In this document: positions 23,785-53,223 of the stretch, in pieces
Position numbering within the stretch: the first letter of the stretch is position 1
How the letters are laid out: every line of letters starts with the position of its first letter
Assembly (NCBI GenBank): GCA_947502635.1
Contig: CANNAN010000009.1
Location: 62,001-126,000, forward strand
From: an uncultured Flavobacteriaceae bacterium
Lineage (GTDB): Bacteria; Bacteroidota; Bacteroidia; Flavobacteriales; Flavobacteriaceae
Length of the DNA stretch: 64,000 nucleotides
Reading direction: 5' to 3'
Position numbers and translations under genes: made by a program
Notes under the pieces: generated by a model
Told to the model about the DNA's origin: nothing
Seen by the model: only the letters and a program-made list of their open reading frames with translations
Database searches by the model: none

Positions 23785-23800
23785 TGTTAATATCGTGCCA
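23785..23800 (-). promoter_or_regulatory. candidate sigma-54 promoter of the ATPase-TolC unit
   Basis: On the minus strand TGGCACG-ATAT-TAACA: a perfect -24 half with a weak -12 half (TAAC instead of TTGC). It lies 21 bp before the ATPase start. A paired candidate at 53048 shares the same departure at -12 (TGAC) and the same 51-bp distance to its enhancer-like element, which strengthens both calls. Confidence 0.65.
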
Positions 23801-23851
23801 TTATTTAAACCGCTAAAAAAGAGCCATTTAACTCAAAACAAACCTAACAAT

Positions 23852-23898
23852 GTGTTCGAAATTGATACAATACTGTTCTATAATAGAACACTTTATAT
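23852..23898 (-). promoter_or_regulatory. bipartite enhancer-like element, copy A
   Basis: 47 bp matching copy B at 53115-53161 in 37 positions. It contains two 17-bp sites 21 bp apart: TGTTCGAAATTGATACA (23853-23869) and TGTTCTATAATAGAACA (23874-23890); the latter is a perfect 7-bp-arm palindrome. Exactly 51 bp separate it from the sigma-54 candidate. Likely binding site of the NtrC-type regulator encoded at 53224. Confidence 0.7.
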
Positions 23899-23906
23899 AC
23901 TAGATC

Positions 23907-26297
23907 TTATTCCGTTCTTAAACTTTTTATAGGATTAGTAGCAGCCACCTTTATAGCTTGAAAGCTTACTGTTAACAATGTAATTCCTAATGCTCCTATA
24001 CCTGCTATTACAAAAATCCACCACGATACTTCGGTTTGATACGTATAATTATTTAGCCATTTTGTAACTCCATAATATGCTAAAGGTGTAGCCACAATAA
24101 TTGCAAGTACTGCCAACTTCACAAAGTCTTTGGAAAGTAATTGCCATAAGTTAAATACTGAAGCCCCTACTACTTTTCTAACACCTATTTCTTTGGTTCG
24201 CAGTTCTGCCATAAAAGATGCTAAACCAAACAACCCAAGGCAACTTATAAAAATGGCAAAAAACGCAAAAATGGTAGATAGTTTTCCAATACGTTCAATA
24301 GCTTCAAATTTCTCAGCAAAAGTATCATCTACAAACTCATATTTAAAAGGAACATGAGGTGCGTGTTTTGATAAAACTGCTTTTACGCCCGCTAAAGACA
24401 CTCCTGCACTTTTTTCTGGGTTGAGTTTTAATTCAATCCAATTAGTATTAGCATACTTAATGGTATAAACTGTTGGTAGCACAGGTTCAAAAGGCGACAC
24501 CGCTATGATATCTTTAACCACTCCAATAACCTGATGCTCCTGATTATTCCAACGAATTATTTTACCAACAGGATTTTCTAATCCCATATATTTAATTGCC
24601 GTTTCATTAAAAACAAACGCCGTAGAATCGGTAGCAAAAGTTCTCGAAAAATCACGCCCATCTACAACATCCCATCCCACCGTTTTTCCATAATCATGTG
24701 ATATTGAAATCGTAGCTATATTTGTAATAAAATCTGGAGATTTCCCTTCCCATTCAAACCCACCTGTAGTACTCCAAACATCTGTTAAAGGACTTGATGA
24801 TTCAGCCATTTCTAAAACTGCTCCGCTATTTATAAGTTCGTTGCGGAGCATATTATACTTGCCATCATAATCTTGAGTTGTCTTTTGAACCATTATTAAA
24901 CTATTCATATCATAACCAATAGGCCTGTTTTTCGAATAGTCAATTTGCTTTTCAACAGCAATAGTTCCTATAACCAATATTACCGAAACCGTAAATTGAA
25001 CAACGACCAATGCCTTACGAAATGATGTTGTAGACTGACCTGTTTTAAAAGTACCTTTTAGCACTTTTACTGGTCTGAAAGAAGACAAATACAAGGCTGG
25101 ATAACTACCTGCCAAAAGGCTTGTAATAATTATAAAGACTACGCTGATAATCCAAAAAGTAACACTATTAAAAGGAAACACAATTTGTTTATCAGACAAT
25201 TGATTAAACAATGGCATAACTAAAAAAACCAGACCAATAGCTAATATGAAAGCTGCGAGAACCACTAAAAATGATTCGCTTAAAAACTGATTAATTAATT
25301 GATATCTAGATGAGCCTACTGTTTTTCTAATACCCACTTCTTTAGCTCGTTTCTCTGACTGTGCCGTACTTAAGTTCATGAAATTAATACAAGCCAAGAG
25401 TAAAACAAATAATCCTACCACACCAAATAACCAGACATACTGAATAAACCCGCCAACATTGACTCCATCTTTCCAATCCGACCGTAAATGCCAGTTTTTC
25501 ATTGGGTGCAATACTAATTCGGGCTTATCTCTTTTACCATATTCTGGTATATTATTGAATATCACTTTTTTGATGTTATTGCTCACAGAAATCATGTTTT
25601 TTCCTTCTGCTATTTGCACAAACAATTGATAGGAGTTATTATCCCATTGATTTGTATCACGAGCTGCTTTCACCCATGGATAAGACATGGCATATAACTC
25701 CCAAGGCACAATGAAATCTAACTGATTTAAAGTAGCATTGTGCGCAATATCTTTATACACCCCAGTAACTGAAACATTGAGCTTATTGTTAATCTTCATG
25801 GTTTTCCCTAATGGATTATCGGCTCCAAAAAAGGAATTAGCAGTAGATTGGGATAGTACAATAGAATTTGGATCATTTAATGCATCCCAATCTCCATAGA
25901 TCATATCAAGTGAAAACAAACTAAGGGCTCCTGATTCCATAAAACCGCCATGTCTAGAAAGTTTTTTATCATCCATAGATATCACATTATCTCCATGAAA
26001 TGAGCTCATCACAACATGCTTAAAGTTTTCACCATAATTTGCTCTTAACTCGCTACCTAAAGGATAAGGCAGAGAATACCGAATAACGTTTTTTCCATTT
26101 CGTGTTTTTCTAGACATAACTTGGGCAATGCCATCATAATTGTCATGACTTTTATCAAAAGTAAGCTCATCGTAAACCCACAAACTTATAAGAAGTACTA
26201 AAGCCATTCCTAAAGCTAGCCCGCCTATATTTATTAAAGCATACCCTTTATTTTTTAGAAGGTTTCTTAATGCTATTTTAAAATAATTTTTAATCAT
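23907..26297 (-). CDS. FtsX/MacB-type ABC permease (copy G)
   Basis: 796 residues. Architecture shared by all ten array members: short basic start (MIKNYFKIALRNLLKNKGY), TM1 at about 20-42, a large periplasmic MacB-PCD-like domain to about 285, a first FtsX core with coupling motif AKEVGIRKTVGSSRYQL near residue 316, TM5 near 430, a second periplasmic domain and a second FtsX core (TKEIGIRK-like motif reads TKEIGVRKVVGAS), ending NPIKSLRTE. It has no ATPase domain, so it needs a separate one. It is the last gene of the long unit, 17 bp after copy H; its 3' end abuts the enhancer-like element of the next unit. Probable export or envelope-sensing permease; substrate unknown. Confidence 0.93.
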   Translation of the reverse strand: MIKNYFKIALRNLLKNKGYALINIGGLALGMALVLLISLWVYDELTFDKSHDNYDGIAQVMSRKTRNGKNVIRYSLPYPLGSELRANYGENFKHVVMSSFHGDNVISMDDKKLSRHGGFMESGALSLFSLDMIYGDWDALNDPNSIVLSQSTANSFFGADNPLGKTMKINNKLNVSVTGVYKDIAHNATLNQLDFIVPWELYAMSYPWVKAARDTNQWDNNSYQLFVQIAEGKNMISVSNNIKKVIFNNIPEYGKRDKPELVLHPMKNWHLRSDWKDGVNVGGFIQYVWLFGVVGLFVLLLACINFMNLSTAQSEKRAKEVGIRKTVGSSRYQLINQFLSESFLVVLAAFILAIGLVFLVMPLFNQLSDKQIVFPFNSVTFWIISVVFIIITSLLAGSYPALYLSSFRPVKVLKGTFKTGQSTTSFRKALVVVQFTVSVILVIGTIAVEKQIDYSKNRPIGYDMNSLIMVQKTTQDYDGKYNMLRNELINSGAVLEMAESSSPLTDVWSTTGGFEWEGKSPDFITNIATISISHDYGKTVGWDVVDGRDFSRTFATDSTAFVFNETAIKYMGLENPVGKIIRWNNQEHQVIGVVKDIIAVSPFEPVLPTVYTIKYANTNWIELKLNPEKSAGVSLAGVKAVLSKHAPHVPFKYEFVDDTFAEKFEAIERIGKLSTIFAFFAIFISCLGLFGLASFMAELRTKEIGVRKVVGASVFNLWQLLSKDFVKLAVLAIIVATPLAYYGVTKWLNNYTYQTEVSWWIFVIAGIGALGITLLTVSFQAIKVAATNPIKSLRTE

Positions 26298-26314
26298 AAT
26301 GTTTTGAGATTACG

Positions 26315-28753
26315 TTATTCCTCTCGGATAATAACAGCAGGATTTAACCTTAAAACTTTTAACACATAATACATAATGTTACATACCGCTACCATAAGTA
26401 TTAATAAAACAGCGCTTAGAAAAACGACACCTTGAATCTCTATTCTGTAGGCAAAATTGTTTAGCCAGTTCATCAAGAAATACCAGGTTAGTGGAATGGC
26501 AATGGCTGCAGCTATTACTATGAGCAAAATGTAGCCTTTAGACATTAACATAAAAACAGCCTTGTTATTTGCTCCTAAAACCCTGCGTACGGCAATGGCT
26601 TTTAAGTTCTCAACTGTTGTTAAAGACACCATAGCAAGAAGCCCAAGGTTAGCTATTAAAATGGCTAATATGGTCAACGCATTAAAGATGTTGCCAAATT
26701 GTTTGCATTGGTTATACTGTTCATTAAAAAAACTATCGGAAAAATGTGCTAAAAAAGGGTCATCTGGATACATGGCATGCCATTTAGATTCTATAAAATC
26801 CATTTGGGCTTTAAGATTGTTCGGGCTTAATTTCACCAAATAGTGTCCAAATGCAAAAGGGTGCCTGTTTGTATAAAAAGCTGGCAATATAGACTCTGTT
26901 AATGATTTCATATGAAAATCTGCCACAATGGCTCTTATTTTCCAAAGAAGCCCATCTAACATCACTTCTTGTCCTAAAGCATCTTCTGGACTTTCAAACC
27001 CAAGTAGCTCCAAAGCCTTTTCGTTAATAATAGTTTCCATTTTTTGCTGTGTAGGGTCTATTTCAAAATTGTTTCCTGCTAGAATTTCTGCCCCATAAAG
27101 AGGAAGGAAATTTTCATCAATAAGGCGCTCTTCAACTTCAGTTTGTATAGCTTCTCCCTTTCCTTTAAGCTTAATATTATGCCGTAAAAGTTCGGCTTCT
27201 TCTCCTGGAATGCTATAACACGATGCGACTTCTTTTAATGATGAATTCTGTAAAAGTTGTTGCCTGAATACATTGTATTTTCCATTTTTTATGGCTATTT
27301 CGTCATATGAATGCCAACCACCTGCATTTAAACTTGTAGGAGCTTGCAAAACAATAACTTGATTGGTGTTAATTCCTAAATCGTAGTTTTGCATAAATTG
27401 CACTTGTTGATAGACCACATAAGCTGCTATGGTAAGAAATATGGATGCACAAAATTGTACTACCAAAAGTCCTTGCTTTATATAGGCATGACTCGTTCTT
27501 CCTTTTATTATTTTTCCTTTTATTGCCGTATTTACATCTATAGAAGTTAAAACAAAAGCAGGATAAAAACTAACAGCTAATACGCATACACCAAAAATTA
27601 GAATCCCTAAAAACCAGAACAATGGTTTGGTAAACACATTAAAACTTAGTGAAATATTAAAATAGCTTTCTATAAATGAAGTACTAACTAACACAATAAT
27701 TGCAGCAATTATTAATGCAGTCACATTTAGTAAAAAGGCTTCAATAAAATATTGAATTCTTAATTGTAAGGCTGATGCTCCTAAGGTTTTTCTAACACCT
27801 GTATCTTTGGATCTTCGTAGAGAAAGTGTTGTACTTAAATTAATAAAATTGATAAAAACAATGATTAATATAGCAATACCAACCCCCATAATGATGTAAA
27901 CTTGACTGAGGTTTCCATTAGCTTCTAGCTCATCATTATAATTAGACGTTAAGTGAATATCTTCAATAGGCTGTAAGCCAAATTCTATCTTTTTCCCTTC
28001 ACTTTTTTCAGGGTTTACATGTAATAAGCTTAAATTATTTAATGCCCTTTGAATGTTATCTTTTGAACCTTGATTGGATACCGAAATGTAATTCTGGCCG
28101 AAATTCCAATGCCAATTCCCTTCTTTTTGTATCCATCCATAATGCACCCAAGTGTCGAGCGTAGCTAAATATTCGTATTTAAAATGGGTATTTAATGGTG
28201 GATCTTTCACAACGCCTGTTACCTGAAAAGGCATGCCTTCATTTACCTTTACTTCTTTTCCTATTGGGTCTTCATTACCAAAAAGGGCATAGGCTCTAGA
28301 TGCTGTAAGTACCATTTTTAAAGGCGCATCTAAGGCTGTATCTGGATTTCCTGAAATAAGTAACCCCTTAAACACTTTAAGAAAATCTTTATCTACCCAA
28401 TATACTTTTTGTTTCGCATATTTTTTATCATCAGTTCTAACCAGACAAGGTTCAAAATAAGTTCGTGTAGCATGCTCTATATTTGGTATTTCTACAGGAG
28501 CAATTTGTTCTAATATAGATGGTCCCTTAGTACCTTCAAACACCTTTTTACCATGTACATATCTAGCTGTGGCAACCCTATATACGTTTGCCTTATTATC
28601 AATATGATCTTCATAAGAAAACTCAAAGGTTACATACCCCAGAATAAGAATACACACTGCAAACCCTAGAGCTAAACCACCAATATTAATAGCTGTAAAA
28701 AACTTTTCACGACTAAAGACTCTTAATGCAAACTTTAAATTATTCTTAAACAT
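26315..28753 (-). CDS. FtsX/MacB-type ABC permease (copy H), divergent
   Basis: 812 residues from the ATG at 28753; an upstream in-frame start would overlap the esterase gene and gives an atypical N-terminus. The start MFKNNLKFALRVFSREKFF differs from the common MIRNYFKIAWRNL of other copies. First coupling motif RSKDTGVRKTLGASALQL is near residue 313; the second is altered to KAIAVRRVLGANNKAVF in place of KEIGIRKVLGAS. C-terminus ends NPAVIIREE rather than NPIKSLRTE. These differences make it the most diverged member besides F, perhaps an older lineage or a different partner ATPase. Two periplasmic domains and eight membrane helices remain recognisable. Confidence 0.92.
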   Translation of the reverse strand: MFKNNLKFALRVFSREKFFTAINIGGLALGFAVCILILGYVTFEFSYEDHIDNKANVYRVATARYVHGKKVFEGTKGPSILEQIAPVEIPNIEHATRTYFEPCLVRTDDKKYAKQKVYWVDKDFLKVFKGLLISGNPDTALDAPLKMVLTASRAYALFGNEDPIGKEVKVNEGMPFQVTGVVKDPPLNTHFKYEYLATLDTWVHYGWIQKEGNWHWNFGQNYISVSNQGSKDNIQRALNNLSLLHVNPEKSEGKKIEFGLQPIEDIHLTSNYNDELEANGNLSQVYIIMGVGIAILIIVFINFINLSTTLSLRRSKDTGVRKTLGASALQLRIQYFIEAFLLNVTALIIAAIIVLVSTSFIESYFNISLSFNVFTKPLFWFLGILIFGVCVLAVSFYPAFVLTSIDVNTAIKGKIIKGRTSHAYIKQGLLVVQFCASIFLTIAAYVVYQQVQFMQNYDLGINTNQVIVLQAPTSLNAGGWHSYDEIAIKNGKYNVFRQQLLQNSSLKEVASCYSIPGEEAELLRHNIKLKGKGEAIQTEVEERLIDENFLPLYGAEILAGNNFEIDPTQQKMETIINEKALELLGFESPEDALGQEVMLDGLLWKIRAIVADFHMKSLTESILPAFYTNRHPFAFGHYLVKLSPNNLKAQMDFIESKWHAMYPDDPFLAHFSDSFFNEQYNQCKQFGNIFNALTILAILIANLGLLAMVSLTTVENLKAIAVRRVLGANNKAVFMLMSKGYILLIVIAAAIAIPLTWYFLMNWLNNFAYRIEIQGVVFLSAVLLILMVAVCNIMYYVLKVLRLNPAVIIREE

Positions 28754-28760
28754 ATTATTC

Positions 28761-29588
28761 TTATTCCTTAAAATTCGGATACACAAATTTCACACCATCA
28801 TAAACCGTTTTTAATAAAATGGTAATGTGTGTTTCATTTTTATAAGCTACACTTTTCCAATAGAGATTATTAGGTGAATTCTCTTTTAAAACATCACCTA
28901 CAGCTTCAATTCCCATACCTCTATATGGCATACCTTCACGACCACTTATAAACAGTTTTACATCTAAATCTAACAGATTAGGCAATGTCTCTTTTGCCAG
29001 TTTAATCACATATTTTCCATCCCACCATAATGATGGGTCTGCTGCTATATAAGCGCTAAATAGATTAGGAGCTTTTAACATGCTGTAAATAGCGAATGTG
29101 CCACCGTGAGAATGTCCAAAAAGTGTATTGTATTTTGATGTAGCATAGGTTTTATTAATATGAGGCATTAACTCCTCTTTAATAAATTTGATATAATTAT
29201 CGGCGCCTCCTGATAAGGGTGAACGCTTATCATGAGTAGGTAATAAGTCCCTATCACGCATCACTACACCATCTACAAATTTATTATCTATTCCAACAAT
29301 AATACATCTTGGTATTGCCTGCCAATCTGATGCAATTCGGTGTGTTGGAGACACTACATTTACTACGGTTTCTCCATCTAACACATAAATAACATCATGT
29401 TTTTTATCCGAATTCAAATCATAGCTATAGTCTGCTGGTAAAACAACACGGTAATTTCTATATTCATTCAATGTTTTGGAAAAAAGGGAATCTTGAATTA
29501 CAGTATTATTTTGTTGTGCTTTTACGGTATTAGATACACATAAAAATGCTATGGCTATAAAAAATAAAAGTTTGTTGTGGTTTTTCAT
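28761..29588 (-). CDS. alpha/beta-hydrolase, esterase-D/IroE-like, exported
   Basis: 275 residues with a signal peptide (LLFFIAIAFLCVSNTVKAQ). The fold pattern DVIYVLDGETVVNVV, then RCIIVGIDNK, RDRDLLPTHDKRSPLSGGADNYIKFI, and the nucleophile elbow FGHSHGGTFAIYSML near residue 157 (Ser at the elbow centre), with WWDGKY and a C-terminal ETHITI supplying the likely His. This matches the putative esterase family that includes siderophore esterases. It is set inside the permease operon, 7 bp before copy H and 49 bp after copy A1, so it is probably coexpressed with them. The link to an exported ester substrate is inference. Confidence 0.88.
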   Translation of the reverse strand: MKNHNKLLFFIAIAFLCVSNTVKAQQNNTVIQDSLFSKTLNEYRNYRVVLPADYSYDLNSDKKHDVIYVLDGETVVNVVSPTHRIASDWQAIPRCIIVGIDNKFVDGVVMRDRDLLPTHDKRSPLSGGADNYIKFIKEELMPHINKTYATSKYNTLFGHSHGGTFAIYSMLKAPNLFSAYIAADPSLWWDGKYVIKLAKETLPNLLDLDVKLFISGREGMPYRGMGIEAVGDVLKENSPNNLYWKSVAYKNETHITILLKTVYDGVKFVYPNFKE

Positions 29589-29637
29589 GTTTGTTGTTGT
29601 TTTTAGATATGTTTCTTGATTGATACATTTTGATTTT

Positions 29638-32073
29638 TTATTCTGAACGCAAAATTTTTGCTGGATTTATTAATGCAGATTTTACTGCATGATAACTTAT
29701 AGTTACTAAAGCTATAGTCATTGCTATAATACCTGCAACGGCAAAAACAGACCAAGACATATCTATTCTATATTCATAATCTTGCAACCACGTTTGCATT
29801 AAATAGTAAGCTATTGGAATTGCAACAGATAGTGCAATTATAATAAGTGCTAAAAAGTTTTTTGTAAGTAATTTAAAAATAGTCTGTACTGAAGCTCCAA
29901 GTACTTTACGGATACTCATTTCTTTGTTACGCTGTTCTACCATGTAAGCTGAAAGCGCTAGTAAACCTAAACAAGCCACCAATATGGCTAAAATGGCAAA
30001 TGCTGTAAATATGGATTTTATTCTGTTTACGTTATCATACATTTTAGAAAAAGACGCATCCATAAATTCGTATCTAAATGCCATATTAGGAACAAACGCC
30101 TTCCATTTTGCTTCCATTGATGATAATACTGCTGAGACATTTGATGTATTTATTTTTACGGAAGTTATGGAGGGACTTATTCCGCTAAAAAAACAAAGTG
30201 GTCTCACCGATGTTTTCATCGTATCAAAATTAAAATCTTCTACAACGCCTATAACTTCATAAAGCTCGCCATATCTAGAGATTCGTTTACCAATGGGTTC
30301 TATTAGATTTAATTCTTTTGCCATGGCTTGATTTATTATCACCGCTTGCTCATCAGAAGCTCTACTTGCAATAAAATTGCGCCCATCAACTAAGCTCATT
30401 CCCATTGTTTCAATATAGTCTTCATCTATTACCCAGGCCTGCCCAGGTATATTTTCGTCAATACCATCTTTACCTTCGTTTACAAAACTATTTCCATTTC
30501 TTTTGGTGCCTTCAATTGGTAAATAATCGCTAACAGAAACACTGCTAACACCTGGTAATTTTTCAAGTTCTTCTTTAAAGGTTTCAACGCGTTCATTTAA
30601 AATATTAGTACTGTAAATTTGAACAACTTGGTCTTTTTCAAACCCTACCTTAGAATTCAAAATAAAATTCATTTGTTGGTTTACAATTAATGTTCCTACA
30701 ATTAAAATGATTGAAATTGTAAATTGGAAAACTACTAGGCTACTTCTCAATCCAGATGATTTGCTCCCTGAACTTAATTTACCTTTAAGCACATTAATAG
30801 GGTTAAAGTTTGAGAGGTAAAACGACGGATATAGACCAGCCAGAATACCTACAAAAATTGATGCCATTAAAATAATTGGAATAAACCCAAAACTAGACCA
30901 AGGCATTATTAAATCAATACCAGACATACTCCTAAAAAGAGGCATTAATAAAGCAGATAAGGCTATTCCAACAATAAAAGCAATAAGTGAAATAAGAATG
31001 GATTCTGCCAAAAACTGACCAATAAGTTGTGAACGTGTAGAGCCTACCACTTTTCTAAGACCTACTTCCTTTGCACGGTTAGCGGATTTTGCTGTTGACA
31101 AATTAACAAAATTGATGCTTGCAATAATTAGAATAAACAAGGCGACAATACCAAAAATCCATATGATTTTAATATCATTTCTAGAACTAGATTCAAAACT
31201 TATATGCGCAGAATGCAAATTAATGTCTGTAAGAGGTTGTAAGTACATTTTAATCCGCTCATGCATTTGTTCCCAACCTGCAAACCCTGCAGACTGGAAA
31301 GCTGGTTTTATATACTTTTCTATTAAAGTAGTGCCCATCTTTTTTTCAAAAGCGGCAACATTAGTACCCGATTTTAAAACTATATAAGTGAAATAGTTAT
31401 TTTGAATCCATCTTGTTTGTTCGCCCTCACCAAACTCTACATCTTTTAATGTGATTAAAAAATCATAGTCTAAATGAGAATTACTAGCAAAATCTTCCAT
31501 CACTCCAGTAATTTCAAATGGATCTTCATTATTACCATTTAGGTACATAATACGCCCTACAGGATTTTCACTCTTAAAATATTTTGTGGCAATACGTTGT
31601 GAAATCACCATTGTTTTTGGTTTAGTGAGTGCTGTTGTTACATCCCCATAAACCATATTAACACCCATAATATCAATCATGGATTGATCAGCATACGTAA
31701 AGCCTTCTTCATGGTGTTGCATATCTTCTCCATCAAAACGTATCTCATTGCTACCAGCTCTATAAAAAAGCTGATTAGCCATTAATCTACCTGAATTTTC
31801 CACTTCTTCAAAGTCTTTTAAAACAGTGCTAGCTGTATTTGCTGAAAAGTGAATACCATTGTTAACACGACTATCCTCAATATATTGACCTGTCATTCTA
31901 TATACATTCTCAGAATTTGGAACACCACTGTCATAGCTGCTCTCATGAAGTATATAAATGGTTATTAAAATACAAGCAGCTACTCCTATGCTCAATCCAA
32001 AAATGTTGATAAACGAGAAGCTTTTATTCTTCAATAGGTTTCTCCATGCAATTTTAAAATAGTTACGTATCAT
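29638..32073 (-). CDS. FtsX/MacB-type ABC permease (copy A1)
   Basis: 811 residues. N-terminus MIRNYFKIAWRNLLKNKSF, TM1 SFINIFGLSIGVAACILI, first coupling motif RAKEVGLRKVVGSTRSQL near residue 332, second motif NKEMSIRKVLGASVQTIF, end NPAKILRSE. It is closely related along its whole length to copy A2 (36991): they share IYILHESSYD, FEEVENxGRLMA, TYADQSxIDIM and VEQRNKEMSIRKVLGAS. The next gene upstream, B1, is likewise the sister of B2, so A1-B1 and A2-B2 are a duplicated pair. Starts 22 bp after B1. Substrate unknown; A-type periplasmic domains differ from those of the other copies. Confidence 0.93.
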   Translation of the reverse strand: MIRNYFKIAWRNLLKNKSFSFINIFGLSIGVAACILITIYILHESSYDSGVPNSENVYRMTGQYIEDSRVNNGIHFSANTASTVLKDFEEVENSGRLMANQLFYRAGSNEIRFDGEDMQHHEEGFTYADQSMIDIMGVNMVYGDVTTALTKPKTMVISQRIATKYFKSENPVGRIMYLNGNNEDPFEITGVMEDFASNSHLDYDFLITLKDVEFGEGEQTRWIQNNYFTYIVLKSGTNVAAFEKKMGTTLIEKYIKPAFQSAGFAGWEQMHERIKMYLQPLTDINLHSAHISFESSSRNDIKIIWIFGIVALFILIIASINFVNLSTAKSANRAKEVGLRKVVGSTRSQLIGQFLAESILISLIAFIVGIALSALLMPLFRSMSGIDLIMPWSSFGFIPIILMASIFVGILAGLYPSFYLSNFNPINVLKGKLSSGSKSSGLRSSLVVFQFTISIILIVGTLIVNQQMNFILNSKVGFEKDQVVQIYSTNILNERVETFKEELEKLPGVSSVSVSDYLPIEGTKRNGNSFVNEGKDGIDENIPGQAWVIDEDYIETMGMSLVDGRNFIASRASDEQAVIINQAMAKELNLIEPIGKRISRYGELYEVIGVVEDFNFDTMKTSVRPLCFFSGISPSITSVKINTSNVSAVLSSMEAKWKAFVPNMAFRYEFMDASFSKMYDNVNRIKSIFTAFAILAILVACLGLLALSAYMVEQRNKEMSIRKVLGASVQTIFKLLTKNFLALIIIALSVAIPIAYYLMQTWLQDYEYRIDMSWSVFAVAGIIAMTIALVTISYHAVKSALINPAKILRSE

Positions 32074-32095
32074 GATTGTTCGTTTTTTGATGATA

Positions 32096-34528: not shown

Positions 34529-34550
34529 GATTGTTTTTTTGATTGATGAA

Positions 34551-36980: not shown

Positions 36981-36990
36981 AATAGTTTTT

Positions 36991-39432: not shown

Positions 39433-39434
39433 GA

Positions 39435-41843: not shown

Positions 41844-41844
41844 A

Positions 41845-44220: not shown

Positions 44221-44221
44221 A

Positions 44222-46654: not shown

Positions 46655-46669
46655 GATTACATTAATTCG

Positions 46670-47329
46670 TTATTTACTATCCTTAACTATTTCTAAATTT
46701 TTAAATCTTCCAAAAGCATTGTTTCCTGTCCATAGCCCTATTTTATCCGATCCCGATACTGCTAATCTTTTCACAACCAAATCGGGTTTTTCTTTTTCCC
46801 CGTCTACAAATACTTTAACCGTTTTTTCACTTATTACAATTTTTACATGAAACCAATCATTTGGTTTTGGTGGCTGTATGAGTTCATTTTCAAATATGCC
46901 TCCTCTTTCTTTCCTTAGTTTGTGCCAAGTATATTTGGGGTGACTTATATACTGTACCATATGGTCTTTTTTTATTTGTTGCTCTGCTATAAAATTGAAC
47001 GGACGAAAATAAACAGCTTCATAGGTCGAATCGTTTTTTATATTAAATGCAATCCCTACAAAGCTTCTCCCAAGCAGGTTTTTTCCAGCAATGTCTATTT
47101 CAATAGAACCTTTTGTGAATGATATATTTTTAAATATTCCCAAACCGTCTCCCTTTTTAGTATTCATAAATAATGCATTAGAATCTGTAGAGTCAATCGA
47201 GATCTGTCTGTTTACTGCTTTTATTTCGTTATCTACAAAAGCATTTATAAGGACACTTTTTTGCGCGTAAGAAAACCCTTGTATTGATAGAAAAAATAGA
47301 AGCGTTTTTAAAATAAGATGTGTTTTCAT
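46670..47329 (-). CDS. exported LamG/DUF1080-like concanavalin-fold protein
   Basis: 219 residues with a signal peptide (LLFFLSIQGFSYAQ, cut near residue 22). The rest is a single beta-sandwich-like domain: FTKGSIEIDIAGKNLLGRSFVGIAFNIKNDSTYEAVYFRPFNF, then WFHVKIVISEKTVKVFVDGE and GSDKIGLWTGNNAFGRFKNLEI, typical of the 3-keto-glucoside hydrolase/DUF1080 or LamG group of glycan-binding proteins. It is probably periplasmic or surface-exposed. It lies between the GIN protein gene (2 bp) and permease E (15 bp), and so is cotranscribed. A role as a binding partner of the array is inference. Confidence 0.75.
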   Translation of the reverse strand: MKTHLILKTLLFFLSIQGFSYAQKSVLINAFVDNEIKAVNRQISIDSTDSNALFMNTKKGDGLGIFKNISFTKGSIEIDIAGKNLLGRSFVGIAFNIKNDSTYEAVYFRPFNFIAEQQIKKDHMVQYISHPKYTWHKLRKERGGIFENELIQPPKPNDWFHVKIVISEKTVKVFVDGEKEKPDLVVKRLAVSGSDKIGLWTGNNAFGRFKNLEIVKDSK

Positions 47330-47331
47330 AA

Positions 47332-48111
47332 TTAATTAATTTTCTTAATCTTAGCCTCACCTAATATAATGCCCTTACTTACCTCTGGGTTTCCTTTATA
47401 GTTAATAACAGCTTCTCCATATGCAGTTACTTTAAGGTAATCTGAAACGTTTAAATAATACTTCCCTTCACCAAATGCCGTAATTTTCGAGTCTTCATTA
47501 TTAACAGCACCAATATTTATTTCGCATTCACCATAACACTTCATCTTGTGTTTAATAACACTACCCTTTTTTATTTCTAAATAGCTTTCACCATATATGG
47601 TCGTATTTAAATTTACTAAGTCTAGATGATTGAAATATGTTTTAGATTCACCATAAATTTTTAATCTTAACATAGCGCTATCTATATGGTCTTTAAAAAC
47701 AAAAGTTTCATCGCCTCTTAGCGAAAGTTCATTAATAGTTTTATAGGTAACAGTTGCTGTAACAATGGTACCTTGATATATGGAACACTTTCTTTTCCAA
47801 TTCTCATCTTCATATTTTTCTGACTTTGAAGCTATTCTTGCATCATCTAGATAAATATGAAGCGTATTACCTTTTACTTTAATATTTAATTTGTCATTAG
47901 AAACCTTATTGGATTCAACAGTTACAGATTCTTTATCACCTTCTACAAAAGTTACTTGTATATGCGGACTGATAATTACTTTTTCAAAGTGGTCTACGCT
48001 AATAGCTGTTGATTGCCCTAATGCATTCATGCCTATTAAGACTAAACATGTAAACATCATGCTTTTTAGACTTCTAACTATTGGTTTTTTTAATAATCTT
48101 GTTAATTTCAT
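47332..48111 (-). CDS. GIN-domain (DUF2807) exported protein
   Basis: 259 residues. Signal-peptide-like N-terminus (MMFTCLVLIGMNALGQ) after a basic stretch. The GIN domain runs from STAISVDHFEKVIISPHIQVTFVEG to the end: repeated short strands with YGESKTYFNHLDLVNLNT, YGESYLEIKKGSV and YGECEINIGAV, the right-handed beta-helix-like repeats of this Bacteroidota head domain. Such proteins are envelope-associated and of unknown function. It is 2 bp upstream of the LamG-like gene in the transcript, and next to the permease scar at 48147. An involvement in envelope-stress sensing is a guess from position. Confidence 0.85.
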   Translation of the reverse strand: MKLTRLLKKPIVRSLKSMMFTCLVLIGMNALGQSTAISVDHFEKVIISPHIQVTFVEGDKESVTVESNKVSNDKLNIKVKGNTLHIYLDDARIASKSEKYEDENWKRKCSIYQGTIVTATVTYKTINELSLRGDETFVFKDHIDSAMLRLKIYGESKTYFNHLDLVNLNTTIYGESYLEIKKGSVIKHKMKCYGECEINIGAVNNEDSKITAFGEGKYYLNVSDYLKVTAYGEAVINYKGNPEVSKGIILGEAKIKKIN

Positions 48112-48146
48112 TTTTTTTGATTTTGATTGATGATTTACTTTCTAAT

Positions 48147-48225
48147 TTATTCTGTTCTTAAACTTTTAATAGCCTTTGTTTTTTAAAAGATTCCGCCACG
48201 CGATTTTAAAATAGCTGCGTATCAT
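48147..48225 (-). pseudogene. internally deleted permease scar
   Basis: The minus strand starts ATG and reads MIRSYFKIAWRNLLKNKGY, the common permease N-terminus, then joins directly (out of frame by one) to codons reading IKSLRTE and a TAA, the common permease C-terminus. About 2.3 kb of an ordinary copy is missing. The DNA of both ends is near-identical to intact neighbours (for example GCCACGCGATTTTAAAATAG on the plus strand, also found at the start of copy D). It is therefore the relic of an eleventh permease. It lies in the 160-bp gap between copy F and the GIN gene. Confidence 0.85.
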
Positions 48226-48241
48226 AACTATACGTTTTTAT

Positions 48242-48258
48242 GCTGAAATACCTTCAGC
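48242..48258. repeat. short palindrome, second copy
   Basis: GCTGAA..TTCAGC arms around ATACC, related to the element at 6472-6490. Between permease F and the scar. Confidence 0.45.
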
Positions 48259-48271
48259 GCAGATTGATGAA

Positions 48272-50740
48272 TTATTCTTCTTTCAATGCTTCAACAGGAT
48301 TATTTGTTGCTGCTTTAAAACTTTGCCAACTCACACTAGCAAGTGCAATACCTATGGCAAGTAGTCCTGCAAAACCATAGACCCACCAAGTAATATTTGT
48401 TCTATAGGCAAAGTCTTCTAACCACCTATTCATGGTGTACCAAGAAACTGGTATCGCAATGACATAAGCAACAACAACCCACTTTAAAAAATCTATATTT
48501 AGCATCACCATAATTTGGCTTACGGTAGCGCCACTTACCTTTCTAATGCCTATTTCTTTAACCCGCTTTTTAATATTAAACAATGCCATACCAAGTAACC
48601 CTAAACAAGAAATTAAAAGAGCAAGACACGCTGAATAGGTCAAAATTTGATTAAACTTTTGGTCTCTTGCATATTGAGCTGCAAAAGAAGTATCTGAAAA
48701 ATTATAAATAAACGCCTCTTTAGGATATAAGCTATTCCATATTTGTGTAATATGAGACATGGTTTTATCAATGTCTTTAGAATTTAGTTGAAATGAATAA
48801 TACCCAACACTATGATCCCAATTTAAATTTTGAGTAAAAATGCTTGGTTCTATTGAGGTGTGTAACGACGTATGATGGTAATCTTCAATAACACCTACTA
48901 TTTTACAGTTATTATTTCCAACAGTTATTACTTTACCCAAAGCATCTATTGCATCTGTTATCCCCATAGCTTGTAAGGCTGTTTCATTAATTAAAATATC
49001 ATTAGAGACCCAATCATTTTGAATGCTCAAATTTTTTCCTGCTTTTAAATGAATACCATAGGTTTTTATATAATTATCATCGATACTAATTTCACTAAAC
49101 GAAGCTGGAAACGGTTCTGCAACACCTACTGGTCTAATCTGATTATTTAAACGGTTCGCCTTTTTCCCAGGGATACTAGAACTTACCGAAAAAGAGTTTA
49201 CACCATTTAAAGCGACTAATTCGTTTCTAAAAGTTCTTAGCTTATTTGGTATATCTGGATGTTGATTCATGGTCATTGGAGAGAAACTATACAATGTTTG
49301 GTGGCCATCAAACCCAAGATCGGACGCAACCATAAATTGCATTTGTTTGTAAATACCAACGGTACAAACAATTAATATGATGGTTATTGAAAACTGCATG
49401 GTCACCAAAACCTTTTGGCTTTTCCATTTTTGACTTATCTTTTGTGTACCTATTTTTAATCCCGAAGAAAAACGGTTTTTTACTACAGATAAAAAAGGAA
49501 TAAGAGCTGCAACGACAGACACCAATAAAACAATAGCGATTACAGATAGAAATATGTAGGGTGCAACTTTTGTGGAAGGAAGTTCTTTAACAATTAAAAC
49601 ATAGGCCAAAGGCAATGATAAAAGTAAGGCAAGACCATTAAAAATAAAGCTTTCTACCAATATCATTTGAAAAATCTGCCCGTAAGTAGAGCCATTAAAT
49701 ATGCGAATGGAATAATTTTTTAGCTGCTCTATATTCGAAATTGTATTTAGATTTATAAAATTGATCAAACACACAAATAACACGACAGCTATAATGATAT
49801 AAAGAAAAATAATTTGCTTTGTATTGCCATTTACAGACTGCTCATGACTTAAGTTGGACTTTAAATGAATATCGCGAATAGGTTGAAACTTAAATTTCAA
49901 ATTGCCATTTTTTAATCTATAAGGCAATGGCACTTTACCTAGCAAACCAGCAACCTTAGACTCAACAGTTTTTATCCCAATATTTTTTTTAAGTTTTATG
50001 TAAGAATAAGGTCTGTATTGTACAGGTGTACTCCAACGTCTTTGGCTATAAGGATCTGGTTTATGATATTCATAATTAGGATTCTCTACTAAAACCTGTT
50101 TCGTATTATCAAAATTCTGCATGTAGTAGAAAAGTGATTTATAAGCTGCCACGACATCTATTTTCATATGGCTGTTACTTGGAATATCTTCAAAAACAGC
50201 ATCTACAACAAATTTCCAGCCTTCATTAACTGTGAGTTCTTTATTAATAGGATCTTCATTTCCAAATAACTTTTTGGCGAACGACTGAGAAATCACAACA
50301 CCATGAATATTTTCAAGCAGTTTTGTACTTTCAGATTTTATAATCTTTCTATTAAACACTTCAAAAAAGGTAGGATCTGTATACACAAAATCTACATCTT
50401 GTATTTTTTGTTTTGAGTCATTAAAAATGGTTACAACATCTTTCCCAAAATTACAGTGGCTTATTACTTCTGGTAATTCTAAATCTAATAATTCTGATGC
50501 GCCACCAAAGTTTTTTGCAGATAGCACTTCTTCACCATTATTATATTTAACATCTAAGGCTACTCTGTAAACAGATTCTGAATCTGTCCAAAATTGATCA
50601 TAACTATTCTCATACTGAATTTTTGCTGTTAAAAAGATAAAAACAGTAAACCCCACGACAAGGCCTAAAATCTTTGCTACAGACAAAAATTTCTTTTTTA
50701 GAATACTTCTTATAATTGATTTTAGAAAGTGGGATTTCAT
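48272..50740 (-). CDS. FtsX/MacB-type ABC permease (copy F), divergent coupling motif
   Basis: 822 residues, the longest copy and the first permease in the transcript. Start MKSHFLKSIIRSILKKKFL unlike the common MIRNYFKIAWRNL. In the first FtsX core the usual AKEVGIRKxxGS coupling motif has decayed to QLKNYSIRIFNGSTYGQI (near residue 340), while the second is canonical (VKEIGIRKVSGATVSQI); end NPVEALKEE. The first half may not contact the ATPase in the usual way. It starts 11 bp after a 55-codon small ORF and follows the ATPase gene, so F is the likeliest primary partner of that ATPase and the adaptor. Confidence 0.93.
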   Translation of the reverse strand: MKSHFLKSIIRSILKKKFLSVAKILGLVVGFTVFIFLTAKIQYENSYDQFWTDSESVYRVALDVKYNNGEEVLSAKNFGGASELLDLELPEVISHCNFGKDVVTIFNDSKQKIQDVDFVYTDPTFFEVFNRKIIKSESTKLLENIHGVVISQSFAKKLFGNEDPINKELTVNEGWKFVVDAVFEDIPSNSHMKIDVVAAYKSLFYYMQNFDNTKQVLVENPNYEYHKPDPYSQRRWSTPVQYRPYSYIKLKKNIGIKTVESKVAGLLGKVPLPYRLKNGNLKFKFQPIRDIHLKSNLSHEQSVNGNTKQIIFLYIIIAVVLFVCLINFINLNTISNIEQLKNYSIRIFNGSTYGQIFQMILVESFIFNGLALLLSLPLAYVLIVKELPSTKVAPYIFLSVIAIVLLVSVVAALIPFLSVVKNRFSSGLKIGTQKISQKWKSQKVLVTMQFSITIILIVCTVGIYKQMQFMVASDLGFDGHQTLYSFSPMTMNQHPDIPNKLRTFRNELVALNGVNSFSVSSSIPGKKANRLNNQIRPVGVAEPFPASFSEISIDDNYIKTYGIHLKAGKNLSIQNDWVSNDILINETALQAMGITDAIDALGKVITVGNNNCKIVGVIEDYHHTSLHTSIEPSIFTQNLNWDHSVGYYSFQLNSKDIDKTMSHITQIWNSLYPKEAFIYNFSDTSFAAQYARDQKFNQILTYSACLALLISCLGLLGMALFNIKKRVKEIGIRKVSGATVSQIMVMLNIDFLKWVVVAYVIAIPVSWYTMNRWLEDFAYRTNITWWVYGFAGLLAIGIALASVSWQSFKAATNNPVEALKEE

Positions 50741-50751
50741 CTCTCTTTTTA

Positions 50752-50919
50752 TTATGTTTCTTTTATTTCGTCTAATAATAAGTCTACTAATAACTTTAAA
50801 TATGTTAACTCGTTATTATCCAGAATTAGTGATTGATTTTTGATACTTAAACGTAATTTTAAATCTGCATTTTCTTTTTCTAATTTCTTGATCTTTATGT
50901 TATCTAAATCTGGGGTCAT
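50752..50919 (-). CDS. small coiled-coil protein (55 residues)
   Basis: ATG at 50919, TAA at 50752-50754. The product starts MTPDLDNIKIKKLEKENADL and continues with heptad-patterned leucines and lysines to LLVDLLLDEIKET: a short coiled coil or leucine zipper with no signal peptide or membrane helix. It fits neatly between the ATPase gene (75 bp downstream of that stop) and permease F (11 bp), in the same orientation. Leucine and asparagine codons look like those of neighbours. No function recognised; it could be a regulator or assembly factor of the export complex, or a spurious ORF. Confidence 0.6.
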   Translation of the reverse strand: MTPDLDNIKIKKLEKENADLKLRLSIKNQSLILDNNELTYLKLLVDLLLDEIKET

Positions 50920-50994
50920 TTTTTATAATCAGATTATTCTGGTTTAATATGTTTTTATGCCGTTTCGAAATAATTAAGTCTCTCGATAAATAAA

Positions 50995-51672
50995 TTACAT
51001 TAAACTATTTTCAGCCACTTTCTGCCCATCCAACATACGAATAATACGATGCGTAAATTTTGCATCATGCTCACTATGCGTTACCATAACTATAGTGGTT
51101 CCTTGAGAATTTAATTCAGTTAACAAATCCATAACTTCATTACCATTACTACTATCAAGGTTTCCTGTTGGCTCATCAGCAAGTATTAACTTGGGGTTAT
51201 TAACTACAGCTCTTGCTACAGCTACACGTTGTTGCTGACCACCCGATAATTGCTGTGGGAAGTGTTTACGTCTGTGCATAATCTGCATTTTTTCTAAGAC
51301 TTCTTCCACACGTTTTTTACGTTCTGCTTTTTTTACGCCTGTGTATATTAAGGGGAGTTCTACATTTTCGAAAACAGAAAGTTGATCTATCAAATTAAAA
51401 CTTTGAAATACAAAACCGATATTATGTTTTCTAATGTTTGCACGTTTACGTTCATTATAATTTATCACTTCTTCACCATTAAAAATGAAACTGCCTCCAT
51501 CTGAATCATCCAGCATTCCTAAAATATTAAGCAACGTTGATTTCCCACACCCGGAAGGCCCCATAATGGCAACAAACTCTCCTTCTTTAACCTCAAAGGA
51601 TAGTTTATTAAGTGCTATGGTTTGTAACTCTTCTGTTTTATAATATTTTTCTAAATCTGTTATTTTTATCAT
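50995..51672 (-). CDS. ABC transporter ATP-binding protein (MacB/LolD type)
   Basis: 225 residues. Walker A GPSGCGKST at 38-46, signature LSGGQQQRVAVARAVV, Walker B LILADEPTGNLDSSNG, and switch His in MVTHSEHDAKF are all canonical. It shows the family features of MacB and LolD ATPases (NIGFVFQSFNLIDQLSVFENVELPLIY). It lies directly after the MacA-like adaptor gene in the transcript (98 bp, with a palindromic repeat between) and before the permeases. It is presumably the main ATPase of the array. Confidence 0.95.
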   Translation of the reverse strand: MIKITDLEKYYKTEELQTIALNKLSFEVKEGEFVAIMGPSGCGKSTLLNILGMLDDSDGGSFIFNGEEVINYNERKRANIRKHNIGFVFQSFNLIDQLSVFENVELPLIYTGVKKAERKKRVEEVLEKMQIMHRRKHFPQQLSGGQQQRVAVARAVVNNPKLILADEPTGNLDSSNGNEVMDLLTELNSQGTTIVMVTHSEHDAKFTHRIIRMLDGQKVAENSLM

Positions 51673-51690
51673 CTTTTACTTTTTATTGTC

Positions 51691-51763
51691 TGGTCGAGCG
51701 CAGTCGAGACCTTATTATATTTCTTATAGCTCACAAACCTCTCGACTGCGCTCGAGGGGACAA
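51691..51763. repeat. dispersed palindromic element, good copy
   Basis: Perfect 15-bp arms TCGAGCGCAGTCGAG (51694-51708) and CTCGACTGCGCTCGA (51741-51755) with a 32-nt loop, ending near GGGGACA. It lies between the adaptor and ATPase genes inside one operon, so it may act on the transcript as a stem-loop. Same family as 5232, 14515 and 55998. Confidence 0.75.
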
Positions 51764-51770
51764 CTATATT

Positions 51771-53018
51771 TTATTTTAATACTAATTCCTGTTTATCTCC
51801 AAAATTATCATAGCTAGAAGTGATCACCTTATCTCCAGGCGACAAGCCTTCTAAAACCTCATAATATTGTGTATTTTTTGTTCCCAATTGAATATCTACT
51901 TTATAAGCCAATGTACCATCTTCATTTAATTTAAAAATCCAGTTTCCTCCTGTTTTTTGAAAAAATCCACCTTTAGGCACTAAAACGGCTTGTTTTTCCT
52001 GACTTAAAGCCAATCGAATTTGTAATGATTGTCCGCGTCTAATACCCTCAACTTTTTTATCAAATAACATATCCACCTGGAATCGGCCATTAGTAACTTG
52101 AGTAAATACCTTTTTAATGGTCAACACATAGGTTTCTCCATTGAATTCAAAAGTACCTTGTTGCCCAGAATAAATTCTGGAAATATAGTGTTCGTCTATA
52201 TCTGCACGTACTTTAAATCCGCTTAAAACATCAATTTGCCCCAAACGTTGCCCTTTAGTTTTAGACTGACCAATCTCGGCATCTAAAGAGGTTAATTGTC
52301 CATCTACTGGTGCTCTAACCACTAAATCTCCTACTTTTTTACGCATTAATTTTAAAGCACTTTGTGTTCTTGCAAAAGAACTTTTTACTTGATTCGCTTC
52401 TTGTTTTACTGCTATAGAATCTTCCTTAAGAATTTGTTCTGCAAGCTCCATTTGCTGTTTTTGGTTATTGTAATTGTTTTCAGATTCTTTAAACTCCTGA
52501 CCACCAATGGCTCTTTGCGTATACAATTTTTTATTTAGCTCGTATATACGCTCTGCTTCTATTAAGGTGTTTTTTACATCTGTCATTCTTGTTAACTTGT
52601 TAATCGTATTTTGTCTTGCAGCATTTTGCGAGATCTGCATTTGTGTTAATAGATTATAAACAGATGTTTCTTGATTCACTAAACTTAACTCTAAATCTGT
52701 ATTAGAAAGACGCAGAATAGGTTCCCCTTGTTTCATAATAGCGCCGTCTTCAACAAATTTCTCATCCACACGCCCCCCTTCAAGGGCATCTAAATAAATT
52801 GTGGTAATGGGCATAACAACTCCTGTAACAGGAATATTCTCTTGAAATACACCTTCTTTAATTTCGCTAATAGAAATACGCTCCGTATCAACATTTAACT
52901 TTGACTTTCCTCCTGTTGAAACAACTACAAAAATTATTAATGATATTAAAAGCAATATTCCAACAGCTATGCTAATTCTCTTTTTACTAAAACGTTTCTT
53001 TTCTAATGGGATATCCAT
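51771..53018 (-). CDS. MacA-like periplasmic adaptor (efflux membrane-fusion protein)
   Basis: 415 residues from the ATG at 53018. The open frame extends 19 codons upstream, but a sigma-54 candidate occupies that stretch and the extension has no family character. N-terminal TM anchor (SIAVGILLLISLIIFVVV, about 13-32); lipoyl-like half ITTIYLDALEGGRVDEKFVEDGAIMKQGEPILRLSN; a long alpha-helical hairpin (about 110-230); the second lipoyl half LVVRAPVDGQLTSLDAEIGQS; and beta-barrel and membrane-proximal parts to the C-terminus. It bridges an inner-membrane permease to TolC. It is the first gene of the long operon. Confidence 0.93.
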   Translation of the reverse strand: MDIPLEKKRFSKKRISIAVGILLLISLIIFVVVSTGGKSKLNVDTERISISEIKEGVFQENIPVTGVVMPITTIYLDALEGGRVDEKFVEDGAIMKQGEPILRLSNTDLELSLVNQETSVYNLLTQMQISQNAARQNTINKLTRMTDVKNTLIEAERIYELNKKLYTQRAIGGQEFKESENNYNNQKQQMELAEQILKEDSIAVKQEANQVKSSFARTQSALKLMRKKVGDLVVRAPVDGQLTSLDAEIGQSKTKGQRLGQIDVLSGFKVRADIDEHYISRIYSGQQGTFEFNGETYVLTIKKVFTQVTNGRFQVDMLFDKKVEGIRRGQSLQIRLALSQEKQAVLVPKGGFFQKTGGNWIFKLNEDGTLAYKVDIQLGTKNTQYYEVLEGLSPGDKVITSSYDNFGDKQELVLK

Positions 53019-53047
53019 GTATGCTATTATATTTATACAGAATCTAT

Positions 53048-53063
53048 AGTCATTACTATGCCA
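53048..53063 (-). promoter_or_regulatory. candidate sigma-54 promoter of the adaptor operon
   Basis: On the minus strand TGGCATA-GTAA-TGACT: good -24 half, weak -12 half (TGAC). It ends 29 bp before the adaptor ATG. Exactly 51 bp separate it from the enhancer-like element at 53115, as at 23785/23852. Confidence 0.65.
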
Positions 53064-53114
53064 GTTTTTAAACACTTAACTATCAATACATTAAAAAATT
53101 AAAAAAAATTTAAA

Positions 53115-53161
53115 GTGTTCGAAAATGATACACTCACGTTCGATAACAACACACTTTTTAT
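53115..53161 (-). promoter_or_regulatory. bipartite enhancer-like element, copy B
   Basis: Two 17-bp sites 21 bp apart: TGTTCGAAAATGATACA (53116-53132) and CGTTCGATAACAACACA (53137-53153). 37 of 47 positions match copy A at 23852-23898. It lies between the divergent adaptor operon and the NtrC-type regulator gene, so that protein is the obvious candidate binder and may also control itself. Confidence 0.7.
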
Positions 53162-53167
53162 CAATTC

Positions 53168-53175
53168 TATTTTTG
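53168..53175 (+). promoter_or_regulatory. -7-like element of the regulator gene
   Basis: TATTTTTG matches TAnnTTTG, 48 bp before the regulator ATG. No TTG -33 at the right distance. It sits just downstream of the enhancer-like element, compatible with autoregulation. Confidence 0.35.
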
Positions 53176-53223
53176 TCGTTTAATAATTTTTAATGAGACT
53201 ATTATTATTGTAATATTGTAATA

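Follow-up and report, generated by a model that had tools for sequence, protein, structure and literature searches.

Paired upstream elements at both ends of a permease gene array point to joint control by a divergent NtrC-type regulator in a Flavobacteriaceae genome

Two paired elements in one window

How could a bacterium keep both ends of a long pump-gene array under the same control? The question is raised by a 64,000-nucleotide stretch of DNA from an uncultured Flavobacteriaceae bacterium (assembly GCA_947502635.1, contig CANNAN010000009.1, positions 62,001 to 126,000; hereafter, the window), in which one minus-strand operon begins with a periplasmic adaptor gene and runs through ten permease genes (operon 1), a second begins with an ATPase gene, ATPase2, at the far end of the array (operon 2), and an NtrC-type response regulator is encoded divergently from the adaptor gene. 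Upstream of each operon lies a 47-bp element with two 17-bp sites, followed at a fixed distance by a TGGCA-type promoter. We consider it highly probable, on comparative sequence evidence, that these paired sites are upstream activating sequences for the neighboring NtrC-type activator, which would jointly control both operons and probably a distant esterase gene. The features concerned are the following.

53115–53161, minus strand: putative enhancer element of the adaptor operon, with 17-bp sites at 53116–53132 and 53137–53153, 21 bp apart; layout present in 15 of 15 ortholog genomes
53048–53063, minus strand: sigma-54-like promoter of the adaptor operon, TGGCATAGTAATGACT, with a good –24 and a poor –12 box
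23852–23898, minus strand: putative enhancer element of the ATPase2 operon, with 17-bp sites at 23853–23869 and 23874–23890; copy present in 8 of 15 genomes
23785–23800, minus strand: sigma-54-like promoter of the ATPase2 operon, TGGCACGATATTAACA
53224–54570, plus strand: NtrC-type response regulator of 448 amino acids, the proposed activator, with receiver, AAA+ and Fis helix-turn-helix (HTH) domains and the motif GAFTDA

An initial annotation of the window had described the two elements as matching at 37 of 47 positions, each with paired 17-bp sites 21 bp apart and 51 bp from a TGGCA-type promoter; coordinates and counts check out, the 21 bp being measured start to start in both elements. 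The four sites read TGTTCGAAATTGATACA, TGTTCTATAATAGAACA, TGTTCGAAAATGATACA, and CGTTCGATAACAACACA, and the distal site of the ATPase2-operon element is a near-perfect palindrome. The site form proposed at that stage, TGTTCGAAAATGAAACA, is not literally any of the four. When the two 300-bp upstream regions were compared, the best ungapped 47-mer had 37 identities, a value reached by none of 2000 dinucleotide shuffles (mean 27.3, maximum 33). As in enhancer-type elements, the dyad sites are repeated, lie roughly 80–150 bp upstream and are tied to an activator; their centers would fall at about –87 and –108 relative to the expected transcription start.

To see how specific the arrangement is, the initial annotation had set a genome search for paired sites as a check beforehand. 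Across the whole 5.44-Mb genome (81 contigs), only these two promoters carry the pair pattern TGTTC-N9-ACA-N5-GTTC-N9-ACA in exact form. With up to two mismatches, the same genome yielded 14 matches versus 16 for the reversed pattern used as control, and these looser matches are therefore uninformative by themselves. Single sites in the window (61 matches versus 58 expected) were not informative either, and genome-wide, with at most one mismatch, they numbered 9 versus 27 for the reversed control.

Could the likeness be no more than the functionless trace of a promoter segment copied recently, by paralogy or gene conversion? The elements are 79% alike and the surrounding permease genes are paralogs, both of which fit such an origin. 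However, the intervening 51-bp spacers (24/51 identical) and the outer flank of 50 bp past the element (just 17/50) match far less than the elements do; the promoters agree at 10 of 16 positions. In addition, the distal site differs from that of the genome's own adaptor copy in the other seven genomes with a second copy, and the layout is kept beside regulators of 63–67% identity (see below). We regard mere copying as highly improbable.

Conservation of the layout alongside the regulator

Our core sample comprised the 15 genomes—that of the window included—with a full-length ortholog of the regulator (at least 69% identity), which together provided 23 promoters: 15 of adaptor operons and 8 of ATPase2 operons, the latter referred to as second promoters. 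Gaps run from the proximal site's final base to the T of TGGCA. L027 (70% identity) was excluded from the counts as its contig stops short of the intergenic region, five loci (L043, L046, L047, L049, L065) were excluded as duplicates of counted genomes, and two (L069, L070) as receiver-domain-only. Four stretches of viral contigs matched a pattern, none of which codes for a relative.

The adaptor-side doublet with a GGCA promoter was present in all 15 genomes, and the gaps of all 23 promoters fall within 51–54 bp. A refined pair pattern (at most two mismatches) found 14 of the 15 adaptor promoters, the remaining one—in G034, with 22 bp between the sites—being found by script. Across the 15 adaptor promoters, mean pairwise identity is 0.87 for the proximal and 0.78 for the distal site, 0.42–0.44 for the spacer, 0.80 for promoter positions 1–12, and 0.54 for positions 13–18. 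Applied to 18 genomes, the refined pattern gave 24 matches and its reversed control none: 14 adaptor promoters, 7 second promoters, 2 places before a secreted esterase gene, and 1 at G005:C22. The occurrence at many unrelated genes that would have spoken against a dedicated regulon was not seen in this 18-genome search. A looser scan with up to six mismatches over 568 kb of relatives' DNA, mostly these clusters, gave 16 matches, all of them adaptor or second promoters. The layout also extends to ten regulators of 63–67% identity (from Flavihumibacter, Lacibacter, Sediminibacterium, a Chitinophagaceae metagenome-assembled genome, and further metagenome-assembled genomes of Bacteroidota), where it is kept in all ten with gaps of 51–53 bp, four of them with just 10 of the 12 end letters.

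The second element and its promoter are found in 8 of the 15 genomes: that of the window, G003, G010, G028, and G060 through G063. Between ATPase2 and the preceding permease gene, no element was detected in G002, G004, G007, G009, and G034, and the closest relatives, G005 and G011, have a small open reading frame (ORF) where it would be. The culturable Flavivirga algicola (L018/L043, L074–L076) likewise has the adaptor-side element and both ATPases and lacks the second element. Permease genes per array range from 2 (G060) to 14 (G061), and where both promoters exist, the layout is kept while the intervening DNA varies by tens of kilobases. The idea that long arrays require the second element found no support, as it is present with 2–14 permease genes and absent with 4–13; on the regulator tree, its presence takes 4 changes, a number as low in 96 of 500 label shuffles.

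Are the array ends the only targets? Matches to a secreted esterase (PF00756 and PA14 domains) occur in 8 of the 18 genomes, seven at 71–100% identity and one, in G063, at 36%. Upstream of this gene, a doublet with weaker sites and a promoter at a gap of 50–52 bp is present in five: the window's genome (C3:288851–288888, outside the window), G005 (where the promoter reads CGGTA), G011, G003, and G008. With G063 excluded, the element accompanies the esterase in four of five genomes with the regulator and in one of two without it, which is too few to test. The relative in G063 lies inside its cluster, and the window array also carries a PF00756 esterase gene (28761–29588); such esterases within both clusters support the secreted esterase as a third target. 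On this comparison, the secreted esterase is probably part of the regulon, which would not be confined to the array ends. The earlier view of the ends as one regulon is supported for the ends themselves, is probably too narrow as to the esterase, and does not extend to the 7 of 15 genomes lacking the second element. As a separate observation, the esterase gene of G001 (locus L164), a genome lacking the regulator, is not preceded by the segment in which G008 has its enhancer and promoter.

Does the divergent gene encode the activator, or is it a bystander to elements bound by some other regulator, be it activator or repressor? Its product has the domains of the NtrC family (PF00072 receiver, PF00158 sigma-54 AAA+, PF02954 Fis HTH), and the same genome encodes RpoN. 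The GAFTGA loop reads GAFTDA, as in most sister activators, a variant among those expected to stay active (PMC4641369). In favor of another regulator, G008 has the esterase element and no ortholog of the regulator—a sister activator may therefore serve the esterase there—and similar sites, TGTTCG/TGTCCG, stand before sister activators, so that cross-talk is plausible. On the other hand, all 25 orthologs examined have a paired site no more than 400–500 bp upstream of the regulator gene. Of the four HTH_8 proteins in the genome (E up to 0.01), the other three have different recognition helices. Furthermore, all 15 genomes that have the regulator also have ATPase2, and none of the three same-genus genomes lacking the regulator does, a joint presence or absence in 18 of 18. 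We therefore think it very unlikely that the activator is a bystander: the promoter modules conserved with it support the initial proposal that the divergent gene at 53224 encodes the putative regulator of these operons.

Promoter boxes and an IHF-like match in the spacer

The GGCA of the –24 half is present in 23 of 23 promoters, in line with the GG of sigma-54 promoters at –25/–24. The GC expected at –13/–12, by contrast, is found at positions 14–15 in none of the 23, a point against use of sigma-54. These positions read AC in 11 and AA, CC, TC, TA, CA, or TT in the remainder; GC occurs one base nearer in two (the adaptor promoter of G002 and the second promoter of G003). The initial annotation had stressed a shared TnAC deviation: both window promoters do read T-N-A-C at –12, but with AC in 11 of 23 the deviation is not conserved. 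We accordingly class the promoters as sigma-54-like rather than as proven members. Might TGGCAC instead be an element of a housekeeping or extracytoplasmic function sigma factor? Such a reading would account for the missing GC and for positions 9 and 12 (T) being more conserved than the –12 box. It squares poorly with the invariant GGCA, with the canonical box of sister promoters that have like paired sites (ATTGCC in L028 and L039, CTTGCC in L060), and with the presence of RpoN and a sigma-54-type activator in the genome, and we hold it to be a very doubtful explanation. Coupling of the GAFTDA loop to the odd –12 box was rejected, given that GAFTDA or GSFTDA is found in most sisters, also together with a canonical –12 (L028, L039). 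Counts over 12 genus genomes (TGGCAY-N5-TTGCW, 64 versus 44 in the reversed control; TGGCAY-N5-TNACW, 490 versus 243) allow no conclusion on genus-wide promoters, a reversed pattern being a poor null for coding bias.

What could hold the distance between sites and promoter so constant? Both window spacers contain a match to the consensus of integration host factor (IHF).

53081–53093, plus strand: predicted IHF-consensus bend site TATCAATACATTA, agreeing with 9/9 specified positions of WATCARNNNNTTR, 17 bp from the –24 box
23818–23830, plus strand: weak IHF-like site AAAGAGCCATTTA, 7/9, at the same 17-bp position and not above shuffles

The consensus is that of Escherichia coli IHF, WATCARxxxxTTR (PMC3897727), and all matches to it are sequence-level predictions. 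It is found in full between sites and promoter at the adaptor operon; the 7/9 at the second promoter would fail if taken alone. Among the 15 adaptor spacers, 9/9 matches occur in 9 (0.28 expected from shuffles) and matches of at least 8/9 in 14 (3.8 expected), these 14 all at the same place and three of them as its mirror image. The corresponding numbers are 5 (0.08 expected) and 9 (1.6 expected) for the ten more distant relatives, 3 (0.07) and 5 (1.1) for the five esterase promoters, and 1 (0.04) and 4 (1.7) for the eight second promoters.

Of 38 promoters scored, 32 have a match of at least 8/9, and in 31 of these it has one of two placements: 17–18 bp from the –24 T when read away from the promoter, or 5–6 bp from it when read towards the promoter. 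The two placements are mirror images about a point ~17.5 bp from the –24 T. In the structure of IHF bound to DNA, the consensus has the pseudo-dyad close to its 5′ edge, so the bend center would stay in place if the match were flipped about this point. At 570 other AT-rich [TC]GGCA[CT] sites, the same placements hold matches of at least 8/9 in six and 9/9 in one, a control that supersedes an earlier one (26/592 at six placements) which still included real promoters.

The spacing might still be set without a loop bent by a protein, for example by intrinsic curvature of an AT-rich spacer, in which case the IHF-like match would be incidental. In its favor, the spacers appear rich in AT, tracts of this kind can stand in for IHF (PMC3897727), and the window's second promoter reaches just 7/9. 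Against it stand the matches of at least 8/9 at two mirror-image placements in 31 of 38 promoters versus 6 of 570 control sites, which leave it, in our estimate, unlikely.

Besides the missing GC, several observations weigh against joint control of the proposed kind. Those genomes that lack the second element include both closest relatives, and its occurrence shows no correspondence with array length. At the esterase, the element of G008 stands without an ortholog of the regulator, and G010 has regulator and esterase with a degenerate element that is not clear. As for the bend site, the window's own second promoter scores no better than shuffles, the best match lies at another place in two of the eight second promoters, and just four of eight Sphingobacterium promoters (see below) have at least 8/9 at the usual placements; moreover, the placements were spotted first and the control was run afterwards.

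The sequences themselves document the pairing of sites, the spacing, inheritance together with the regulator and an IHF-like match at a fixed place in most spacers; binding, looping and sigma-54 use are inferred from them. Taken with these reservations, joint activation could proceed as follows. The partner kinase would phosphorylate the regulator, upon which two dimers would occupy the sites 21 bp apart. The DNA between sites and promoter would bend at a fixed point, ~17.5 bp upstream of the –24 T, and at the adaptor promoter at any rate a protein of the IHF/HU type would assist the bending. The AAA+ ring of the activator would then open sigma-54 RNA polymerase waiting at the TGGCA-type promoters. 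Adaptor, ATPase and MacB array (operon 1), ATPase2 and TolC (operon 2), and probably the distant secreted esterase would be switched on together. Where present, the far-end promoter may give the last module a start of its own, with no dependence on read-through of a growing or shrinking array. The physiological role we would place in efflux or envelope stress.

Cluster genes, wider geometry and known systems

The remaining genes of the cluster are listed below.

54560–55927, plus strand: histidine kinase, presumed partner of the regulator
51771–53018, minus strand: HlyD-type periplasmic adaptor, first gene of operon 1
50995–51672, minus strand: ABC ATPase 1
23907–50740, minus strand: ten MacB/FtsX-type permease genes in an array, three of them scanned with Pfam and the array otherwise defined by ORF lists and BLASTP
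47332–48111: DUF2807 gene inserted in the array
46670–47329: gene of unknown type inserted in the array
28761–29588: esterase gene (PF00756) inserted in the array
23092–23763, minus strand: ABC ATPase 2, first gene of operon 2
21661–23076, minus strand: TolC-type outer-membrane efflux protein
20129–21613, minus strand: S41 peptidase

The S41 peptidase was seen to adjoin the cluster in the window, G005, and G011 alone, and its membership is therefore uncertain. With adaptor, ATPase, MacB-like permease, and TolC genes, the cluster resembles MacA-MacB-TolC efflux systems. Unlike in these, where MacB has a fused ATPase and one permease domain, there are two separate ATPases and ten stand-alone permeases, and the array includes an esterase; each of the three permeases scanned has MacB_PCD and FtsX domains in duplicate and lacks an ATPase. 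The DUF2807 protein (DUF2807 being placed in the 'Toastrack' group; PMC11237479) and the PF00756 esterase recur in several relatives' clusters. At 48140–48240 of the window, on the minus strand, a start resembling MIRSYFKIAWRNLLKNKGY is followed directly, in a different frame, by an AIKSLRTE-stop end; both ends of this remnant resemble the ends of intact array genes, as in the scar of a deleted MacB gene, and suggest that the array shrinks by deletion. A small ORF (MTPDLDNIKIKKLEKENADLK...) occupies 50741–50994, between ATPase 1 and the first MacB gene. Directly before the regulator start lies ATTGTAATATTGTAAT (53207–53222), which may serve the regulator itself as promoter or leader; all of the 15 genomes except G034 keep its core GTAATATTGT.

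Does the geometry reach beyond orthologs of this regulator? Promoters of sister activators were surveyed at 14 of 22 loci, leaving out L036, L040–L042, L058, L059, L061, and L062; L036 and L040–L042 gave no match in a scan of gaps from 44 to 60 bp, and the other four, from Sphingobacterium, were covered by a separate analysis of that genus. A doublet with the proximal site at 63–66 bp is present in 11 of the 14. L060 has its gap at 54 bp and L064 at 56 bp; L063 shows one site at that threshold and a doublet at 65 bp in a stricter scan. In Sphingobacterium, each of four loci has two such promoters with gaps of 52–53 bp, and a Parabacteroides locus likewise has two (54 and 55 bp). Within the narrow gap range (44–60 bp), 13 matches were obtained among 32, where 0.25 were expected; that of L038 is a poor match, for which better sites put the gap at 66 bp.

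The stricter scan covered 1.90 Mb, including overlapping loci and mostly DNA around activators; catching 9 of the 23 core promoters, it is a partial sample. For gaps of 10–160 bp, it returned 44 distinct doublet-promoter pairs, of which 21 lie at 51–56 bp, 13 at 63–66 bp, and 10 elsewhere, with none at 57–62 bp in the 1.90 Mb; related loci share descent, so these counts are not independent draws from genomes. L031, L033, and L034 each have two TGGCA/CGGCA boxes 23 bp apart, which places the same doublet at gaps of 63 and 86 bp, and these second boxes account for three of the ten pairs outside both clusters. An IHF-like match often lies near by in sister activators, not always at the main placements: the best match, of at least 8/9, is found at 18–19 bp reading away in L028, L030, L031, L033, L034, and L038, at 28 bp reading away in L032 and L037, and reading towards at 6–7 bp in L060 and L064 and at 16 bp in L035, while L029 and L039 reach just 7/9.

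We lean, by a modest degree, towards a general interpretation: in this Bacteroidota activator family, a hard-wired promoter geometry would replace the movable enhancer, with dimer sites 21–23 bp apart, a distance of ~52 or ~64 bp (roughly one helical turn apart), and a fixed bend point tolerating either orientation, the letters changing by clade while the geometry stays.

How does this compare with established systems? As with NtrC at glnA and nifLA, the proposed activator combines a receiver, an AAA+ and a Fis HTH domain and would act on a –24 promoter from short dyad sites upstream of it. Face-of-the-helix dependence was found for a two-site system, and the enhancer distance at glnA can be extended from 70 to >1000 bp without much loss (PMC7408454); in contrast to glnA, the distance here stays at 51–54 bp across genera and clusters in two steps over the DNA examined. 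Such sites are placed about 100–150 bp upstream, and IHF often assists the looping (PMC7057263). The orp operons of Desulfovibrio vulgaris likewise have WATCARxxxxTTR between activator site and sigma-54 promoter, the working site of orp2 at –43 being close to the position here and that of orp1, at –79, differing from it (PMC3897727); unlike there, the predicted match occurs here in two mirror-image orientations about one point in many genomes. Sigma-54 promoters have been predicted at FtsX-like permeases (COG0577) in Bacteroidia, a finding called first evidence (PMC12316311), and in the literature searched—most subscription papers lay outside it—control of these transporters by sigma-54 is so far a matter of such promoter predictions. 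Activator, binding site, spacing, bend site, and a dual promoter around the array are absent from the available part of that account, and the same literature held no description of this regulon or its geometry.

The present comparison ties a likely activator, its site, the spacing, a bend site, and the targets together in a testable form. A fixed geometry sits oddly with the view of enhancers as acting over a wide range of distances. It offers a specific criterion by which to look for the targets of activators not yet studied, and if the geometry is indeed hard-wired, these targets would be predictable from geometry alone. For the bacteria themselves, the arrangement suggests a possible way in which an expanding and shrinking array of pump genes could keep both its ends under one switch.

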